A stretch of DNA of 64,000 bases from Alphaproteobacteria bacterium. Its GTDB lineage: Bacteria; Pseudomonadota; Alphaproteobacteria; SP197. This document shows, piece by piece, positions 2,759-12,957 of the stretch. Both the position numbers and the translations under genes were made by a program. The stretch is from contig VGDP01000013.1 of NCBI GenBank assembly GCA_016869675.1, forward strand, positions 1 to 64,000. The letters run 5' to 3'. Within the stretch, counting starts at the first letter, position 1; the number at the start of each line of letters is the position of its first letter. The notes beneath the pieces are model-generated. The model saw only the letters and a program-made list of their open reading frames with translations, made no database searches and was not told the origin of the DNA.

Positions 2759-3607
2759 ATGAGCCCCGCCGCATCGCCGACCGAGACCCGCATCGCCTGG
2801 CCGAACGGCGCCCGTTGCGCCGTGATGCTGAGCTTCGATTTCGACGCCGAGACCCTGTGGATCGGGCGCGACCCGGCGAACCTGAAGCGGCCCGGCACCC
2901 TGTCCCAGGGCACCTACGGCGCCCGCGTCGGCGTGCCCAAGATCCTAGAACTCCTGGCGGACCAGGGCCTGCCGGCGACCTTCTTCGTGCCCGGTTGGAC
3001 CGCCGAGACGCACACCGCCCGGGTGGAAGCGATCGTGCGCGCGGGCCACGAGGTCGGCCACCACGGCTACCTGCACAAGTGGCCCGACCCGGACCGCCCG
3101 GCCGAGGAGATCGAGGAGATCGAGAAGGGCCTGGAGGCACTGCGCCGCACCGTCGGCGTCAAGCCGACCGGCTACCGCTCGCCGGCGGGCGAGACCAGCG
3201 AAAACCTGTTCCGCCTGCTCGTCGAGCGCGGCTTCGTCTACGACTCGTCCCTGATGGCGGACATCAACCCCTACCGCATCCCGGCCGGCGACGGCCGCAC
3301 GCTGATCGAGCTGCCCTGGCACTGGAGCCTGGACGACGCGCCCTACTTCCTGTTCTCGATCAAGACGCCCCGGCCGATCTTCACCAACGACCACGTGTTC
3401 CAGGTGTGGACCGAGGAGTTCCGCGAGATCTATCGCTGGGGCGGCCTGTTCGACCTGGTCATGCACCCGCAGGTCACGGGTCGGCCGTCGCGCGTGGCAC
3501 TGCTGCGCCGCATGATCGGGTTCATCCGTTCGTTCCCCGACGTCTGGTTCGGCACCGGCAGCCAGGTCGCGTCGGCCTGGGCCGCGCAGGCCGGCCCGGG
3601 CGTCTGA
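2759..3607 (+). CDS. polysaccharide deacetylase-family (NodB-fold) hydrolase
   Basis: 282-aa metal-dependent C-N hydrolase. The motifs are LSFDFDAE (catalytic and metal Asp), HEVGHHGYLH (metal His pair) and the C-terminal MHPQVTGRPSR. No signal peptide is visible, so it is cytoplasmic. That fits the PuuE-like members that act on small ureides or imides rather than polysaccharide. The ATG at 2759 was chosen because it lies 17 bp after the TauD stop behind GAGGGA. The product probably acts on the same metabolite as its operon neighbours; the substrate is unknown. Confidence 0.82.
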   Translation: MSPAASPTETRIAWPNGARCAVMLSFDFDAETLWIGRDPANLKRPGTLSQGTYGARVGVPKILELLADQGLPATFFVPGWTAETHTARVEAIVRAGHEVGHHGYLHKWPDPDRPAEEIEEIEKGLEALRRTVGVKPTGYRSPAGETSENLFRLLVERGFVYDSSLMADINPYRIPAGDGRTLIELPWHWSLDDAPYFLFSIKTPRPIFTNDHVFQVWTEEFREIYRWGGLFDLVMHPQVTGRPSRVALLRRMIGFIRSFPDVWFGTGSQVASAWAAQAGPGV

Positions 3608-5484: not shown

Positions 5485-6572
5485 GATCCCAGCGCCGCGA
5501 TGAGGCGCGCGACGTCGGCGGCGCGTTCCATGTGCGGCATGTGGCCGGCGTCGAGCCGATGGACGGCGACCGCGGCCGGCAGGCCCTCGGCGTGGGCGAC
5601 CGGGATCACGCGGTCGGCCAGGCCCCAGATCACCTGGGCCGGAATGCGCAGGCCGGCGAGCCGGCCGCGCAGATCGTCGGCCTGGCGCCCGGCCGGAAAA
5701 CACGCGGCCGCGATGGCCCGCAGCGCGGCCTGCGCGCCGTCGATGCGCTTGGCCTTGAGCACGTCCTCGGCCATCGGACGCGTCACCAGCGCCGGGTCGG
5801 CGAACAGCGCGCCCAGCGCCGCCGCCATCTCCTTGCGCCGCTCCGCCGCCAGAAACGCCTCGATGTAGGCACCGTTGATCGCGGGCCCCAGGCTGGCGCT
5901 GGCGATCAGGGTCAGCGCGCTGGCACGCCCGGCCGCCACGAGGCAGACCGCGCCGCCGAGCGAATGACCGACCAGATGGGCGCGCTCGACGCCCAGCGCA
6001 TCGAGCGTCGCCTCGAGCACACGGGCGAGGGCCGCCACGCCGGCCCCGCCAACGTCCATGGTCGAACCGCCATGGCCCGGCAGGTCGAGCGCCACGACCC
6101 GACGTGTTGTCGCCAGGGCGGGCTGGACGAACAACCAGCCGTTCAGATCGCCACCGAAGCCGTGCACCAGAACGACCGTCTCCTCGCCCGCGCCGGTCTC
6201 CTGCACGCGGATCGCCCGGCCGTCCGCCACGACGGTGCGGGTGCGCGGCCCGCCCTCGCCTTCGCCATCGTCGGGCGCGACGACGAACCCGGCGACGAAC
6301 GCGTCGATCTCGGCGTCGGGCACGTCGGGCGCCGCCACGACACCGAGCAGGCCGCCGACCGGCAGGGTGTCGCCCACCTGGCCGACGATGCGGCGCAGCG
6401 TGCCGTCGACCTTGGCCTCAATGGCGTTGGCGATCTTGGTCGATTCGACGTCCAGCACGTCCTGGCCGGCCGCCACCGACTGGCCTTCGGCGACGTGCCA
6501 GCCGGTGACCGTGCCGGCGTCCATCGCCATGCCCCACTTGGGCACGGTGATGGCGTGGATGCGTTCGCTCAT
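5481..6572 (-). CDS. acoC: acetoin dehydrogenase E2-type protein: lipoyl domain plus alpha/beta hydrolase
   Basis: 363 aa. An N-terminal lipoyl domain (residues 1-80) carries the lipoylated Lys46 in DVESTKIAN, where most E2 proteins have a T/S-D-K-A motif. An alpha/beta-hydrolase domain (about 115-363) has nucleophile Ser204 (GHSLGG), Asp320 (GLADRV) and His344 (AGHMPH). This layout is typical of AcoC and replaces the classical acyltransferase core. It transfers the acetyl group from E1 to CoA. The start ATG overlaps the acoB stop (ATGA). No E3 (dihydrolipoamide dehydrogenase) is present, so E3 must come from elsewhere. The true substrate may be another 2-oxo or acyloin compound. Confidence 0.85.
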   Translation of the reverse strand: MSERIHAITVPKWGMAMDAGTVTGWHVAEGQSVAAGQDVLDVESTKIANAIEAKVDGTLRRIVGQVGDTLPVGGLLGVVAAPDVPDAEIDAFVAGFVVAPDDGEGEGGPRTRTVVADGRAIRVQETGAGEETVVLVHGFGGDLNGWLFVQPALATTRRVVALDLPGHGGSTMDVGGAGVAALARVLEATLDALGVERAHLVGHSLGGAVCLVAAGRASALTLIASASLGPAINGAYIEAFLAAERRKEMAAALGALFADPALVTRPMAEDVLKAKRIDGAQAALRAIAAACFPAGRQADDLRGRLAGLRIPAQVIWGLADRVIPVAHAEGLPAAVAVHRLDAGHMPHMERAADVARLIAALGS

Positions 6573-7582
6573 GCGCGCATCACGGACCGCACGGCGTCCG
6601 CGATCCGCGCCCGGCTCGGGATGAACGCGTCCTCTAGCTCGGGTGCGAAGGGCACAGGCGTGTGCGGCGGCGTCACCTTGCGGATCGGCGCCTTGAGATC
6701 GTCGAACGCGTGCTCGGCCACCAGGCTGGCGATGTCCGCCGCCATGCCGCAGCGCGGGTACGCCTCGTCGACCACCACCAGGCGCCCCGTCTTGGCCACG
6801 CTGTCGAGGATGGTCTCCTCGTCGAGCGGCGAGATGGTGCGCGGGTCGACGATCTCCACGTCGATCCCTTCCTTGGCGAGGTCGGTCGCGACGTCCTGGG
6901 CGAAGTGCACCATGCGGGCGAGCGCGACGATGGTCACGTCCTTGCCGTCGCGCACGATGGCGGCCTCGCCGAACGGGATCGTGTAGGGCGCCTCGGGCAC
7001 GTCACCCTTGGCCTTGTCGTACAGCAGCTTGTGCTCGAAGAAGACGACGGGGTCATCGTCGCGCACGGCGGTCATGAACAGGCCCTTGGCGTCGTAGGGC
7101 GTGGACGGCACCACGCACTTGAGCCCGGGGATGTGGGTGAACAACGGGTAGAGGCACTGCGAATGCTGCGCCGCTGCGCGGTAGCCCGCACCGATCTGGG
7201 TGCGGATGACCACCGGCGTCCGGGCCTTGCCGCCGAACATGTAGCGGAACTTGGCGGCCTGGTTGAAGATCTGGTCGAAGCACACACCCATGAAATCGAC
7301 GAACATCAGCTCGACGACCGGGCGCAAGCCACAGGTGGCGGCGCCCACGGCCGCGCCGATGAACGCGGATTCGCTGATCGGCGTGTCGATCACGCGGGCC
7401 TCGCCGAAGCGGCCGATCAGGCCCTTGGTGATGCCCATGTCACCGCCCCAGGCGTCCTGGTCGCCGGGCGCGCCCTTGCCGCCGGCGATGTCCTCGCCCA
7501 GCATGATGATGGTCGGGTCGCGTTCCATCTCCTGGCGGAACGCCTCGGACAGCGCCTGCCGGTAGCTCAGGATCCGTGCCAT
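6569..7582 (-). CDS. acoB: thiamine-dependent acetoin dehydrogenase E1 beta subunit
   Basis: 337-aa transketolase-like pyrimidine-binding subunit. It has MLGEDIAGGKGA near residue 26, a GARVIDTPISE-type motif (EARVIDTPISESAF) and the C-terminal transketolase domain (VVDEAYPRCG). It pairs with AcoA to form the TPP site that splits acetoin or decarboxylates a 2-oxo acid. It begins 9 bp after acoA behind a strong AGGAGGG, and its end overlaps acoC. Paralogous pyruvate and branched-chain dehydrogenases are similar; the AcoC neighbour is what favours acetoin. Confidence 0.88.
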   Translation of the reverse strand: MARILSYRQALSEAFRQEMERDPTIIMLGEDIAGGKGAPGDQDAWGGDMGITKGLIGRFGEARVIDTPISESAFIGAAVGAATCGLRPVVELMFVDFMGVCFDQIFNQAAKFRYMFGGKARTPVVIRTQIGAGYRAAAQHSQCLYPLFTHIPGLKCVVPSTPYDAKGLFMTAVRDDDPVVFFEHKLLYDKAKGDVPEAPYTIPFGEAAIVRDGKDVTIVALARMVHFAQDVATDLAKEGIDVEIVDPRTISPLDEETILDSVAKTGRLVVVDEAYPRCGMAADIASLVAEHAFDDLKAPIRKVTPPHTPVPFAPELEDAFIPSRARIADAVRSVMRA

Positions 7583-7591
7583 CGCGCCCTC

Positions 7592-8572
7592 CTAGTACGA
7601 GACGTAGACGTCGGTCAGGAGTTGGTCGGCGGCGGGGCGCGGCGCCGTCCGCGCCTCGGCCACGGCGCGCTCGACCAGCGCCTTGACCTCGGCGTCGACG
7701 GCGTCGAGTTCACCGCCACCCAGCAACTTGGCGTCGCCGACACGCTTGCGGAACCGATGCAGGCAGTCATGGTCGCGGCGCAGCGCCTCGACCTCGCCCT
7801 TGCCCCGGTAGCTTTGATTGTCGCCTTCGTGGTGGCCGAAGAAGCGGCCGAGCTTGACCTCGATCAAGGTCGGTCCGCCGCCCGTGCGGGCGCGCTGGAC
7901 CGCTTCGGCCGCCGCGTCGTGCACGGCGAAGAAGTCGAAGCCGTCCACCTGCACGCCCGGCATGCCGAAGGCCGGTGCGCGCTTGACGATGTCGCCGCAC
8001 GCCACCGACCAGGACGACGCAGTGGTCTCGGCGTAGCCGTTGTTCTCGAACACGAACACCACGGGCAGCTTGAAGATCGCCGCGAAGTTGAGGCTTTCGA
8101 ACGTGGTGCCCTGGTTCGAGCCGCCGTCGCCCGTGAACGCCACGGCGACCTTGCCGGTTCCGAGCGTCTTGGCCGCCAGCGCCGCGCCGCACGCCAGCGG
8201 CGGACCGCCGCCGACGATGGCGTTGGCACCCATCATGCCCTTGCCCATGTCGGCGATGTGCATCGAGCCGCCCTTGCCCCGGCACGTGCCTTCGCTCGAG
8301 CCGAACAGTTCCTTCATCATGCCGACCACCTCGCAGCCCTTGGCGATGCAGTGGCCGTGGCCGCGATGGGTCGAGATGATGCGGTCGTCGTCGTCGAGGT
8401 GGCTGCACACGCCGACGGCGCTCGCCTCCTCGCCGGCGTAGAGATGGACGAAACCGGGCAGCGCGCCGGATTCGAATAGGTCATGCACCGTCTCCTCGAA
8501 GACGCGGATGGTCGCCATCCGGCGGTAGGCCTCGAGGAGCTTGTCGCGGCTGAGCTGCAGTCCCGTCGTCAT
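7592..8572 (-). CDS. acoA: thiamine-dependent acetoin dehydrogenase E1 alpha subunit
   Basis: 326 aa. The TPP-binding motif starts at GDGGSNQGT and ends at FENN. The phosphorylation-loop region is present (YRGKGEVEALRRDHD), as is the N-terminal YRRMATIRVFEE. Ribosome binding site GGAGG precedes the ATG. It lies 36 bp downstream of puuE on the same strand. A perfect GGTATACC palindrome at 8597-8604 sits in that gap and may be a promoter or operator of the aco genes (inference). Confidence 0.88.
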   Translation of the reverse strand: MTTGLQLSRDKLLEAYRRMATIRVFEETVHDLFESGALPGFVHLYAGEEASAVGVCSHLDDDDRIISTHRGHGHCIAKGCEVVGMMKELFGSSEGTCRGKGGSMHIADMGKGMMGANAIVGGGPPLACGAALAAKTLGTGKVAVAFTGDGGSNQGTTFESLNFAAIFKLPVVFVFENNGYAETTASSWSVACGDIVKRAPAFGMPGVQVDGFDFFAVHDAAAEAVQRARTGGGPTLIEVKLGRFFGHHEGDNQSYRGKGEVEALRRDHDCLHRFRKRVGDAKLLGGGELDAVDAEVKALVERAVAEARTAPRPAADQLLTDVYVSY

Positions 8573-8608
8573 GGTCGGTTCCTCCGTCGGGCGAACGGTA
8601 TACCAGGG

Positions 8609-9520
8609 TCAGGGGCGATAGGGGTGGCGTTGAATCCAGTGCCGCGCGATGTCGATCCGGCGCGCGACCCACACGTCGGGGAAACCGCGCACATGGTCGA
8701 GGAAGCGAGCCAGCGCCATGGCGCGGCCCGGGTGGCCGACCAGGCGCATGTGCAACCCGACCGACATCAAGCGCGGAGTCGTCGCGCCTTCGGCGTATAG
8801 CATGTCGAAGGAATCCTTGAGGTAGCCGAACCACTGATCCGCGGTGCCGATGCTGCCGCGCGTGAACAGGCCGTCGTTGGTGGTCAGCGAATAGGGCACC
8901 ACCAGGCGCGGCCGGCCGTCGACCAGGACCCAGAACGGCAGTTCGTCGGCGTAGGAATCGCTGTCGTAGAGGAACCCGCCTTCCTCGGCGATCAGCCGGC
9001 GCGTGTTGGCGCTGGGACCGGTGCGGCAGTACCAGCCGAGCGGCCGCTGCCCCACCGTGCGGGTCAGCGAGTCGATGGCCCGGCGGATGTGCTCGCGCTC
9101 CTCCGCCTCGGTCAGCTTGTAGTGCTCGATCCAGCGCCAGCCGTGGCAGCAGACGTCGTAGCCGGCCTCGACCACGGCGCGCGCGATCGCCGGGTTGCGT
9201 TCCAGAGCCAGCGCGCAGGCGAACATGGTCGCCGTCATGCCCCGTTCCTGAACCAGGCGATGCAGGCGCCAGAACCCGACGCGGCCGCCGTACTCGAAGA
9301 GCGATTCGGCGGCGAAGTCGCGCGAGCCCAGCGGGTAGGTCGAGGCGCGGATCTCGGTCAGCCCGGTCTCGGAGAAGCCGTCGCCGTCGGGCACGGAATA
9401 CTCCGAGCCCTCCTCCAGGTTGAACACGATGTTGAGCGCGAGCCGGACTCCGCCCGGCCAGTCGGCAAACGGCGGCGCGGCGCCGTAGCCCACCATGTCC
9501 CTGGGGTAATCCGTCGCCAC
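8609..9520 (-). CDS. puuE: PuuE-type allantoinase / polysaccharide deacetylase-family protein
   Basis: 303 aa. It shows the features of cofactor-independent allantoinase PuuE: the N-terminal YPRDMVGYG and WPGGVRLALN, NLEEGSEYS, YGGRVGFWR, CHGWRWIEHY and the C-terminal LVGHPGRA. Members open the hydantoin ring of allantoin or related ureides in the cytoplasm. The start is GTG (9520-9518) behind AGGAGG. The gene is divergent from an SDR, with 68 bp between them, and co-directional with acoABC. No other purine-catabolic gene (uricase, allantoicase) is near, so the substrate may be another ureide. Confidence 0.78.
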   Translation of the reverse strand: MATDYPRDMVGYGAAPPFADWPGGVRLALNIVFNLEEGSEYSVPDGDGFSETGLTEIRASTYPLGSRDFAAESLFEYGGRVGFWRLHRLVQERGMTATMFACALALERNPAIARAVVEAGYDVCCHGWRWIEHYKLTEAEEREHIRRAIDSLTRTVGQRPLGWYCRTGPSANTRRLIAEEGGFLYDSDSYADELPFWVLVDGRPRLVVPYSLTTNDGLFTRGSIGTADQWFGYLKDSFDMLYAEGATTPRLMSVGLHMRLVGHPGRAMALARFLDHVRGFPDVWVARRIDIARHWIQRHPYRP

Positions 9521-9588
9521 CGCGGCCGCCTCCTGGCCATGCCCCCGCGCCGGGCGCTAACCTAGCAGAGCGACAGGAGAAAGCGACG

Positions 9589-10368
9589 ATGGATCTGGGC
9601 ATCAAGGGACGCAGCGCCATCGTGTGCGCGGCGAGCAAGGGATTGGGTCGCGGCTCCGCCCTGGCGTTGGCCCGCGAGGGCGTGGCCGTCACCATCAATG
9701 CCCGCCGCGCCGACGCGCTGGAGGCTACGGCCGCCGCGATCCGCAAGGAAACCGGCGTGAAGGTCACGGCCGTGGCCGGCGACATCACCACCGAGGCCGG
9801 CCGGGCCGCCGTGCTGGCCGCGTGCCCCGTGCCCGACATCCTGGTGACCAACGCGGGCGGGCCACCCTCGGGCGATTTCCGCGCCTGGTCGCGCGAGGAT
9901 TGGCTGAAGGCGCTGGACGCCAGCATGCTGGCGCCGATCGCCCTGATGAAGGCGACGATCGACGGCATGATTGATCGCCGCTGGGGCCGCGTCGTCAACA
10001 TAACCTCGGGCTCGGTCAAGAACCCCTACCCCACCCTTGGCCTGTCCAACGGCGCGCGCGCCGGGTTGACCGGCTTCGTCGCGGGTCTGGCGCGCCAGGT
10101 GGTCAAGCATGGCGTGACGATCAACAACCTGCTGCCGGGCTCGCACGAGACCGACCGGCTGCATCAACTCGCCGAGGCGGAAGCCAAGGCCGCCGGCAAG
10201 ACCGTCGAGGCCGTGCTCGAAGCCAACAAGGCCTACGAGACCGCCGGCCGCTACGGCACCGCCGAGGAGTTCGGCGCCGCCTGCGCGTTCCTGTGCAGCG
10301 CGCACACCGGCTTCATCACCGGTCAGAACCTGCTGCTGGACGGTGGCGCCTACCCTGGGACGCTGTAA
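9589..10368 (+). CDS. SDR-family protein lacking the usual Tyr-Lys pair
   Basis: 259-aa Rossmann-fold short-chain dehydrogenase homologue. The nucleotide-binding loop (AASKGLGRGSA, in place of TGxxxGIG), TNAGGPP and LDGG near the end are visible. At the catalytic site the Ser is present (NITSGSV), but the YxxxK positions read S-N-G-A-R (GLSNGARAG), so Tyr and Lys are replaced by Ser and Arg. I recall a widespread SDR subgroup with this LSNxxR signature whose reaction is unclear. It is preceded by AGGAGA and stands alone between divergent puuE and convergent RidA-like genes. Confidence 0.85.
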   Translation: MDLGIKGRSAIVCAASKGLGRGSALALAREGVAVTINARRADALEATAAAIRKETGVKVTAVAGDITTEAGRAAVLAACPVPDILVTNAGGPPSGDFRAWSREDWLKALDASMLAPIALMKATIDGMIDRRWGRVVNITSGSVKNPYPTLGLSNGARAGLTGFVAGLARQVVKHGVTINNLLPGSHETDRLHQLAEAEAKAAGKTVEAVLEANKAYETAGRYGTAEEFGAACAFLCSAHTGFITGQNLLLDGGAYPGTL

Positions 10369-10374
10369 CGCGCG

Positions 10375-11607
10375 TCAGCCCTGGGCGACACCCCAGATCT
10401 CGACCATGGTCGCCGGGTCGTGCATGTGCGGCTGGGGCACGACCGTGATCGGCGGCAGCGGCCCACCGATGGCGGCGGCGACGGTCGCCAGGAACGTCTC
10501 GGTCGCCTCGGGCGTGCCGTCGGACGTGAAGTAGGCGACGATCAGCTTGAGGTCGGCCGGCCGCCGCCCGAAGCCGCGTAGCAGGTCCTCGATCAGGCTC
10601 ATGGTGAAGCGGGTCTGCGGCACGAGTTGGCTGGGCAGGATGCGCCGGCCGTTGTTCGCGTTCGGCTCGGACGGCACCTGGCCGCCCAGCCAGATGGTGT
10701 CGCGCAGGCGGATCGCCTGGCGGTAGGGCAGCGGGATCGGCCAGTCCCACACCCGGCGCGGCCAGTGGTCCTCGCGCGGGATGTACTTGTCGAAGCCGTT
10801 CCACAGCTCGCGCATGGCCATGACCTCGATCTTGGTCAAGGCCCCCGTGGGTCCCAGCCGATGGCACGGAACAACGGTCGCCACCGGGCCGGGCTCGCGG
10901 AAGTGGCTGGCGCGCGCCTTGGCCAACGGCGCCCAGTGTTCGCGCGTCGTGCCGAAGTAGTAGCCCTCCATCTTGATCGCGTCCTGGGTCGAGGCACCGA
11001 GACCGGCCAGCGTTGCCTCGTGCGTCGCCATGATCGCGTGGCTCTGGGCCACCGGGTCCTTGGCCTTGGCGATGCGGTCGTCGCCGTCGGCGGCGGTACG
11101 GTTGGCCACGGCGACGAACTCGCCGGCGCGCAGGCCCCCGGTGACGTCGCGCCCCTTGAATAGGCCGCGGTACTTGGCCGGCACAGGGCGCGTCACGACG
11201 CGCACGTCGTCGCCCTTGCGCCAACGGCGCTGGGCGATCGCCTGGACCTGGATGCGCTGGCCGGCAAAGGGCTGCATCGGCACCGGCACGGTGCTGACGG
11301 CGGGCATCGGGTTCTTGCGGATCGAACGGGCCAGGCCAGCGATGACCGGCCAGTCGGACGCGCTGGGATCGGCCGTGTAGAAAGCCTTGAGCTTCACCAC
11401 GTCGTCGAGCGAGCAGCCTTCGGGCGCCAGCGCCTCGGCGATGTTGGCCATGGTGCCGTCGATCTGCGCCTCGAGATCACCCGGGTGGCGGATGGCACCT
11501 TCGGAATCCAGATCTGCGCCGCCGCCGACGAAGGTCAGCACGCCGGCCGTCGCGCCGACGTGATGGTTGATCTCGATGGGCATGCGCCAGATGTCACGCT
11601 GGGTCAC
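10375..11607 (-). CDS. three-domain RidA (YjgF/YER057c/UK114) family protein
   Basis: 410 aa. Three RidA-like units can be traced: about residues 9-125 (GVLTFVGGGADLD, then LDDVVKLKAFY), 135-265 (GEFVAVANRTA, then QDAIKMEGYY) and 275-410 (DTIWLGGQVPSE, then ADLKLIVAYF). Single RidA proteins of about 125 aa trimerise and hydrolyse reactive enamine/imine intermediates; here one chain could supply all three units of a trimer. The start was set at GTG 11607-11605 because GGGAGG lies 6 nt upstream; the first ATG is 8 codons later. The gene is divergent from an M24 protein with 96 bp between. The conserved Arg of active RidA was not confidently placed in any unit, so activity is uncertain. Confidence 0.75.
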   Translation of the reverse strand: MTQRDIWRMPIEINHHVGATAGVLTFVGGGADLDSEGAIRHPGDLEAQIDGTMANIAEALAPEGCSLDDVVKLKAFYTADPSASDWPVIAGLARSIRKNPMPAVSTVPVPMQPFAGQRIQVQAIAQRRWRKGDDVRVVTRPVPAKYRGLFKGRDVTGGLRAGEFVAVANRTAADGDDRIAKAKDPVAQSHAIMATHEATLAGLGASTQDAIKMEGYYFGTTREHWAPLAKARASHFREPGPVATVVPCHRLGPTGALTKIEVMAMRELWNGFDKYIPREDHWPRRVWDWPIPLPYRQAIRLRDTIWLGGQVPSEPNANNGRRILPSQLVPQTRFTMSLIEDLLRGFGRRPADLKLIVAYFTSDGTPEATETFLATVAAAIGGPLPPITVVPQPHMHDPATMVEIWGVAQG

Positions 11608-11703
11608 GTCGATCCTCCCTGATGCGCGCCGTCGCACGAGACGACACGGCTGTCCAGGCGGTATACACTGGAGCGATGCTTCGCGCACGCAACGGAGGCA
11701 CCC

Positions 11704-12957
11704 ATGACGGCGACGACGATCCTTGGCCTGACGCCCGGCGCACTGGAGCCGTGGCCCGAACAGGATCGCGACATCGCGTTCTCGGCCGCCGAGTACCACG
11801 AGCGCATCCGGCGCGTGCGCAAGCGCATGGCGAAGGACGGCATCGACCTGCTCTACGTCACCGTGCCGGATCACGTGGCCTATCTGCACGGCTACATGAT
11901 CAGCTGGTACAAGGCCAACAGCCCCATGCGGTATCCGCAGCTCTACGGCACCGCGATCCACGTCGACCACGACGCGTTCATCCACTTCGACAACCCGACC
12001 GAGCTGCCGGTGCTGCAGAAGACCTCGGTCTCGACCGACAACCGCTTCTTCCCCAGCCGCGACGGCGCGCCGAACATCGCCTTCGTCATGAACGAGCTGC
12101 GCGCCAAGGGCTGGCTCAAGGGCACGGTGGGTCTGGAATACTGGGGTTACGTGCCCAACCGGGCGATCAGCACCATGCTGGAGGGTGCCTTCCTGGCCGA
12201 GGGCTGCCGGGTGGTCGACGCCAGCGCGATCGTGCGGCGCGTGCGCCGTGTCAAGTCGCCGGCCGAGATTGCCTACATCCGCAAGGCCGTCGAGATCGCC
12301 GACATCGGCCACGCCACGGTGGTGGCGACCGCTCGGCCGGGCATGACGGAGCTGGAGGTCTACGGCGAGACGCTGCGTGCCATGATGAAGGCGGGAGGCG
12401 AATCGCCCGCACTGGTGCACAGTTTCACCTCGGGCCCGATCCGGGGCGGACGCCCCGTGGCCCACGGCCACGCGATGATGGGCCGCAAGGTGATCCGCGC
12501 CGGCGAGTTCCTCAAGATCGACATCGCGGGCGCCTACCATCGCTACCACGGCAACGTGCAGCGCGGTTACGTGATGGGCGACCCGCTCAAGGCGATGGTC
12601 GAGCGCACGCGTCTGGCCGCCGGCGCGTTCGACGTGTTCGCGGCCGAGGTGAAGGCGGGCATGACCGTGCGCGAGGTCAACGGCATTATGCGCCGCTACT
12701 ACGAGAGCGTCGGCCTGTGGAACGAGCCGGGCTGGGGCGTCGGCTACGAGCTCGGGCTCAGCCTGCCGCCCGACTGGGTCGGCGAGTTCTACTTCAACGT
12801 GCGCGACGAACGCTGGCTCGACCGGGTTATCAAGCCGAACATGGTCACCAACTACGAGAGCATGTTCAACACGTGGCTGGTCGACACCTGCGTCTACACG
12901 CCGACCGGATCGCCCTTCATGTCGAAGACGCCGCTGGCGCTCCAGGGCATCGGCTGA
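11704..12957 (+). CDS. M24 (pita-bread fold) creatinase/prolidase-like protein with degenerate metal site
   Basis: 417 aa. The N-terminal creatinase domain (about 25-175) is followed by an M24 catalytic fold. Aligning the five metal ligands of aminopeptidase P by motif gives Asp273 (KIDIAG), Asn284 instead of Asp (YHGNVQR), Trp344 instead of His (EPGWGVG), Glu385 (TNYESMF) and Val393 instead of Glu (LVDTCVY). It therefore probably does not bind two metals. The family includes metal-free creatinase and ectoine hydrolase (DoeA), which cleave C-N bonds. Strong ribosome binding site (GGAGG). It is divergent from the three-domain RidA protein. The substrate is unknown; a small amidine or ureide is my guess. 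Confidence 0.8.
   Translation: MTATTILGLTPGALEPWPEQDRDIAFSAAEYHERIRRVRKRMAKDGIDLLYVTVPDHVAYLHGYMISWYKANSPMRYPQLYGTAIHVDHDAFIHFDNPTELPVLQKTSVSTDNRFFPSRDGAPNIAFVMNELRAKGWLKGTVGLEYWGYVPNRAISTMLEGAFLAEGCRVVDASAIVRRVRRVKSPAEIAYIRKAVEIADIGHATVVATARPGMTELEVYGETLRAMMKAGGESPALVHSFTSGPIRGGRPVAHGHAMMGRKVIRAGEFLKIDIAGAYHRYHGNVQRGYVMGDPLKAMVERTRLAAGAFDVFAAEVKAGMTVREVNGIMRRYYESVGLWNEPGWGVGYELGLSLPPDWVGEFYFNVRDERWLDRVIKPNMVTNYESMFNTWLVDTCVYTPTGSPFMSKTPLALQGIG

Follow-up and report, generated by a model that had tools for sequence, protein, structure and literature searches.

The 410-residue product of a minus-strand gene in the 64,000-nucleotide window, the whole stretch of DNA that was analysed, is a real, conserved three-unit Rid protein. 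Judged from its sequence and its predicted structure, the chain is a covalently linked pseudo-trimer of three Rid folds with trimer-like packing, and at most one of its sites, which has no catalytic arginine, looks to be maintained. The reading we prefer, held tentatively and at slightly under an even chance, is that this linked pseudo-trimer keeps a single site at unit 3 for a chemistry other than 2-imino-acid deamination.

The reading frame shows no internal stop on translation, and its features are collected in the table. The Pfam family PF01042 (Ribonuc_L-PSP) matches the protein at 81.9 bits against a cut-off of 27.3, which places it in the Rid/YjgF superfamily, and the match is made of three stretches at E values up to 1. 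With the stretches scored separately in a genome search, 11233-11547 and 10813-11136 reach 36.7 and 29.7 bits, and the third (10384-10728) lies under the cut-off at 23.0 bits. Besides PF01042, Pfam up to E 1 returned a weak PRTase_2 match and nothing else; no effector domain appeared.

Features of the triple-Rid locus in the window
Feature	Coordinates	Strand	Basis or remark
Triple-Rid gene, 410 aa	10375..11607	(-)	GTG start, stop codon within the range; translation, PF01042 with three stretches, relatives
AGGGAGG, likely ribosome-binding site	11614..11620	(-)	6 bases from the GTG; sequence, role putative
Unit 1, residues 1-131	11215..11607	(-)	Structure alignment ranges and residue columns
Unit 2, residues 134-268	10804..11208	(-)	Structure alignment ranges and residue columns
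Unit 3 with leader, residues 268-410	10378..10806	(-)	Structure alignment ranges and residue columns
Trp287-Asp288-Trp289, invariant, precedes unit 3	10741..10749	(-)	61/61 in alignment
Glu403, invariant; proposed acid of the single maintained site	10399..10401	(-)	61/61 and chorismatase superposition end points
M24/creatinase-like protein, divergent	11704..12957	(+)	Not conserved as neighbour
Short-chain dehydrogenase, convergent	9589..10368	(+)	6 bp from the 3' end of the Rid gene; not conserved as neighbour

An AlphaFold2 model of the triple-Rid protein, computed from an input that included 16 relatives, has a pLDDT of 85.3 and a pTM of 0.89; the remaining four models have mean pLDDT values of 83.6, 64.3, 62.1, and 55.8. 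The leader with the Trp-Asp-Trp motif lies where the model is weakest, in a stretch (residues 277–294) with pLDDT below 50. RidA-family single chains superpose on model residues 2–131, 134–268, and 268–410 with best Z-scores of 14.3, 14.1, and 14.3 and an rmsd of 2.0–2.5. The best matches to the predicted whole chain are chorismatases (PDB 5a3k, 5ag3, and 4bps), with Z-scores of 26.3–27.0 over 296 residues at 3.0–3.1 Å; we take 5a3k and 5ag3 to be Hyg5 and 4bps to be FkbO. The chorismatase superposition stops at model residue 409 and at chorismatase chain residue 340 or 344. Reading back from these end points, and assuming an ungapped last strand, Glu403 falls at chorismatase residue 334 or 338; its distance from the final aligned position is six residues, equal to that of 334 from 340, a correspondence read from the end points. 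Glu334 is described as the essential acid of Hyg5, near its C terminus, in the part of the Hyg5 report cited here (PMC7170507). In the same fold comparison, chains of the human F-box protein FBXO22 follow far behind (Z ~14, 248–267 residues, 3.9–4.4 Å, 4–5% identity), a possible distant fold likeness to the model.

Relatives of the protein are found on independent contigs. One scan of bacterial genomes yielded 17 loci, 16 of which have an unbroken full-length frame, at 56–71% identity. Of 16 genomes in the taxonomic family of the window, its own included, 15 hold a relative at an E value of 1e-30 or better; in two of these 15 the only match is to the more distant group B described below. At E 1e-40 or better, 9 of 385 genomes in a sample of the class have a match, and in a sample of the phylum the count is 1 of 398, which is the window's own genome. 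Five plasmid records, all from rhizobia, carry a relative at E 1e-20. The window's genome holds a second triple copy, 34% identical to the first, plus nine further single-unit Rid loci. The triple proteins fall into three groups: A, which contains the window protein; B, ~30–36% identical to it; and C, from two Mesorhizobium plasmids. In a tree of the individual units, units 1, 2, and 3 each branch as a clade inside group A and inside group C (support 1.0), and across groups the unit clades are not clean, a pattern compatible with or without a single triplication. The preliminary description had proposed three diverged Rid domains in one chain, to be checked by full-chain prediction for trimer-like packing and by a search for the same domain order in other genomes. 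The three PF01042 stretches and the relatives just described bear this out, and the model agrees, with three predicted units and a chorismatase superposition that reaches Z 27 at the pTM given above.

The site residues were compared in 61 distinct triple proteins: 40 from a first alignment (398–417 aa) and 21 of 22 further loci, which were chosen without requiring the WDW letters and from which one short piece (L107) was dropped. The column equivalent to Arg105 of RidA was read from an alignment with YabJ and single Rids of the window's genome, and that of Tyr17 was located by visual inspection of the alignment. In the window protein, the Tyr17, Arg105, and Glu120 positions are occupied by His15, Val104, and Gln120 in unit 1, by Val155, Ala243, and Lys259 in unit 2, and by Tyr295, Ile387, and Glu403 in unit 3, the only unit that retains the Tyr17 residue as well as the Glu120 residue. 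The catalytic arginine, which the preliminary description had suggested looking for unit by unit, is absent from all three units in 61/61 triple proteins. The Arg105 column holds Ile (39), Val (16), Met (2), Leu (2), or Thr (2) in unit 1, Ala (55) or Gly (6) in unit 2, and Thr (18), Ile (12), Met (11), Ser (10), Val (8), or Leu (2) in unit 3. At the Glu120 position, unit 1 has Gln (38), Glu (20), Met (2), or Leu (1), and unit 2 has Lys (49), Arg (8), Glu (2), or Gln (2); in unit 3 all 61 proteins have Glu. The Tyr295 column is Tyr in 55 proteins and Phe in six, and W287, D288, W289, and T388 are each present in 61/61.

According to the portion of the 2015 Rid survey used here, Arg105 is required for imine hydrolysis and an Ala in its place almost abolishes RidA activity, whereas replacing the Tyr17 or Glu120 residue by Ala has little effect on the Salmonella enzyme (PMC4433059). 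Because this carboxylate-binding arginine is absent from every unit, the triple Rid is probably not a 2-imino-acid deaminase. Since the substitutions at Tyr17 and Glu120 have so little effect on the Salmonella enzyme, conservation at these positions is in turn no proof of catalysis. The earlier suggestion of one or two working sites stands in part: the residue pattern fits it, but with no Arg105 in any unit, imine hydrolysis is unlikely throughout.

The decay of the sites is graded across the three groups. Unit 1 carries the Glu in 13 of 14 group B proteins, in 0 of 24 from group A, and in 0 of 2 from group C. A WxW leader precedes unit 1 in 3/24, 11/14, and 0/2 proteins of groups A, B, and C, respectively, precedes unit 2 in 0, 5, and 2 of the same proteins, and precedes unit 3 in all 40. 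Among the triple proteins, group C alone carries an Arg four positions past the Arg105 column, in all three units of both its members; the window protein has Pro at this position in units 1–3. The same Arg is present in two single-unit Rids that have a Trp-Asp-Trp leader and no Arg105, one on a Paracoccus plasmid (L081:6962-7414) and one on an Arthrobacter plasmid (L084:7971-8420). In group C and in these single-unit proteins it could bind the carboxylate in place of Arg105, and its observation lowered our confidence in the preferred reading from an even chance to just below it. Single-unit WDW Rids of this Arg105-less kind are plausible as the one-unit ancestor type. After the Paracoccus gene come genes of the M20 peptidase and adenine-deaminase-like types. 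Among six single Rids of the window's genome that were checked, four (L068, L069, L072, and L074) have Ser at the Arg105 position.

The genes around the triple Rid vary from locus to locus. When 15 window genes were sought at 11 same-family loci (1–8 kb of flank per locus), the Rid gene itself was recovered, the gene at 6569-7582 gave weak matches (~25%) at two of the 11, and no other window neighbours were found, the convergent dehydrogenase among them. A broader neighbour tally covered 115 genes, up to two per side, at 32 loci with the window excluded, by Pfam at E 1e-8, and the best 25 of 104 families were listed. To obtain expected numbers, family counts from nine genomes were set against an assumed total of 3,400 genes apiece, with genes called at a minimum length of 100 aa. 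Amidases (7/115 vs 0.47 expected) and M81 (MlrC-type) proteins (5/115 vs 0.12 expected) are above expectation, in counts that are not independent, since the loci are related; on ~4 separate contexts, a number set by judgement, the amidase enrichment has P 0.0014. D-2-hydroxyacid dehydrogenases account for 5/115 neighbours.

An MlrC gene lies directly downstream of the triple Rid in L001-L004, L006, and L009, and the encoded proteins are 76–79% identical to that of L002. Because the remaining neighbours of these loci differ while MlrC stays, except in the near-relative pairs L001/L009 and L003/L004, the arrangement suggests that triple Rid and MlrC are a working pair in that branch; a literature search on RidA together with MlrC found nothing relevant. 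In L006 a 943-aa ORF (5980-8811) reads from the triple Rid into MlrC. A gene fusion was rejected on a one-base difference from its relatives at the end of the Rid gene, and the read-through is probably a frameshift or sequencing error.

Elsewhere, an oligopeptide-type ABC ATPase gene is directly upstream of the triple Rid (L045), glycine-dehydrogenase-type (PLP) genes are upstream of it (L001, L009), and a luciferase-like monooxygenase and a beta-keto acid cleavage enzyme form its context (L046). The small protein adjoining the triple Rid in L046 (6928-7380) weakly matches the arginine ADP-ribosyltransferase family, at 35.5 bits against a cut-off of 22.3. A UbiA prenyltransferase gene is beside the triple Rid in L048 (6567-7484), identified by Pfam on that copy only, and UbiA genes lie 4–5 kb away in L015 (7888-8814) and L016 (11550-12458), loci of the same one subgroup. 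The usual substrate of UbiA is 4-hydroxybenzoate. A single pathway for all relatives was rejected, as the MlrC, amidase, dehydrogenase, ABC, L046, UbiA, and ectoine-like contexts differ. Within the window, two polysaccharide-deacetylase-type genes (8609-9520 and 2759-3607) cluster together, and the former resembles the allantoinase PuuE under its cut-off (386.9 vs 424.6).

The triple-Rid gene is indeed divergent from a creatinase-like M24 gene, as first described, with 96 bp between them. From this arrangement it had been proposed that the two proteins share a C-N substrate and that an imine is produced from it, an account that is not supported and that we regard as scarcely probable, on the evidence of 41 synteny loci (repeats included: L042-L044 are L002, L001, and L003), the 11 same-family loci, nine genomes, and the Pfam tally. 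The window's M24 is found at 0/11 same-family loci in the flanks searched, and M24 proteins among the triple-Rid neighbours number 2/115 vs 0.84 expected (the window's own locus excluded), which is near chance. Genomes hold 5 to 38 M24 genes each (nine counted), and in 8/9 the relatives of the window's M24 (E 1e-30 or better), the window itself apart, are located elsewhere than the triple-Rid loci. Imine hydrolysis would also call for the missing Arg105. Against this, weak M24 relatives are close to 2/41 triple-Rid loci, and on plasmids of Mesorhizobium sp. B2-1-1 and B2-1-8 the group C triple Rid is directly upstream of an M24 gene, an exception to the lack of support for the M24 pairing. The plasmid M24 is a different protein, 22–23% identical to that of the window. 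The best curated matches of the window's M24 protein are ectoine hydrolases, far under the NCBIfam cut-offs (NF038259, 138.3 vs 575; TIGR02993, 118.5 vs 613). The plasmid genes belong to ectoine-utilisation-like clusters (L082:2610-10754 and L083:7965-16109) with the distant triple Rid as first gene, together with M24, an amino-acid ABC importer, a DoeB-like deacylase, and an EutB-like (threonine/serine) dehydratase. The L082 M24, deacylase, and dehydratase are all under the ectoine equivalog cut-offs, and the clusters perhaps serve a related cyclic compound. Separately, on contig 7 of the window's genome (L085), a single Rid (6741-7181) lies ~2.3 kb from a second M24 (9506-11557) that is 65% identical to the window's; a Rid is nearby in 1/7 M24 loci inspected.

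Other accounts of the protein have evidence on both sides. One is a Rid scaffold with no catalytic activity, in which a pseudo-enzyme for ligand binding or regulation would sense an intermediate of the catabolic genes nearby; it would agree with the unit-by-unit loss of canonical site residues and with retention of the protein while its neighbours vary. We consider it unlikely, given that the invariance of W287, D288, W289, T388, and E403 in 61/61 proteins is more than packing alone seems to need and that Pfam shows no effector domain. Somewhat less probable is a 3x-RidA of the usual kind, deaminating imines or enamines as a linked trimer and protecting against reactive intermediates made nearby, even though the identical three-unit layout has been published and Ser occupies the Arg position in ~10% of RidA proteins, as stated in the cited part of the survey (PMC4433059). 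In its favour, the group B protein of L058 scores 136.5 against the NCBIfam TIGR00004 cut-off of 106.25, the group C protein of L082 scores 100, the Mesorhizobium relative clusters with a threonine/serine dehydratase, and the PLP genes of L001 and L009 are upstream of a triple Rid. Yet the window protein reaches only 45.5 against the same cut-off, Arg105 is missing from every unit in 61/61 proteins, where Ala nearly abolishes RidA activity, and PLP enzymes and amine oxidases are not regular neighbours, FAD-dependent oxidoreductases (DAO) making up 2/115 among the best 25 of 104 families. A true functional relative of the chorismatases, acting on chorismate or a related cyclic acid, is very improbable. 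The best whole-chain fold match, the apparent placement of Glu403 at the essential Glu334 position by superposition end points, and the nearby UbiA genes point that way; identity is only 14–16%, Pfam to E 1 gives no chorismatase family, PDB sequence searches (E 1; E 0.001) gave no chorismatase-named match, and the UbiA link is limited to one subgroup. The least probable account is a concatenated-Rid hydrolase of the cyanuric acid hydrolase/barbiturase kind, opening cyclic amides before neighbouring amidases act. Concatenation has a precedent there, amidases are over-represented as neighbours, and cyclic amide hydrolases do appear in the Foldseek list, but as poor matches (TM 0.34–0.41 on the model, rmsd 8.7–10 Å, against 3.0 Å for the chorismatases).

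In the preferred reading, a single Arg-less site kept at unit 3, the units of the trimer would have been alike at the start, and two of the three inter-unit clefts would have decayed into scaffold. The remaining site would be built around unit 3 from Glu403, Tyr295, and the Trp-Asp-Trp leader, and in the window's group only this last unit would retain its site. More likely, the conserved Glu would work as the acid/base in a reaction on some other small molecule, one that may be aromatic or cyclic, in the manner of the single-chain chorismatases. To judge from its neighbours, the protein may take part in breaking down nitrogen-containing compounds, with amidases, MlrC-like hydrolases, and importers beside it in various lineages. 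A wider proposal, more doubtful than the single-site reading itself, is that the triple proteins and their single-unit relatives make up a 'WDW' Rid branch with its own chemistry, whose triple form would be the third independent linked Rid trimer with one new site, after chorismatase and cyanuric acid hydrolase, and whose subgroups would capture the other two sites at differing degrees of loss. If the single-site reading is true, this family also displays stages by which a symmetric trimer became an enzyme with one site. In a linked trimer each site can be altered separately, which is not so in a homotrimer, and because its sites can be altered one by one the triple-Rid family offers a direct test of the role of an Arg-less Rid site. 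As a genome feature it is modest, its layout being already known and its chemistry a guess.

The three-unit layout is already known as 3x-RidA, a proposed linked trimer: such proteins have three Rid domains in tandem, are presumed to be covalently linked trimers, and are exemplified by EF_0115 of Enterococcus faecalis in the survey part cited (PMC4433059). The window protein likewise has three tandem Rid domains in one chain, but its family differs from 3x-RidA, which was published as a subset of RidA and is compared here by description, in having no Arg105 in any unit. What appears new, from the alignments, is a triple family in which Arg105 is missing, the WDW leader never varies, and one Glu alone is kept, a combination of which we met no account in the literature searched. 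With Rid5/Rid6 and other Arg-less Rids the family shares the Rid fold and variable residues in place of Arg, whereas those proteins are single units; Rid4-Rid7, which have no arginine, had no known function in the part of the 2015 survey consulted (PMC4433059). The joining of YjgF units end to end, with the gain of a new active site, is the probable origin of cyanuric acid hydrolase, and in the Toblerone fold that this enzyme shares with barbiturase the site lies in the central barrel, unlike Rid clefts, as set out in the cited portion of its structural report (PMC3758960). The triple Rid resembles these enzymes in joining YjgF-type units in one chain and differs from them in its poor superposition. 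With the chorismatases it shares a single chain and a fold match over the whole of it, although the two are far apart in sequence, and the only chorismate-related genes noted near triple Rids are the UbiA genes at three loci of one subgroup. By sequence the triple Rid is not a chorismatase, but the match in fold may indicate what it works like.
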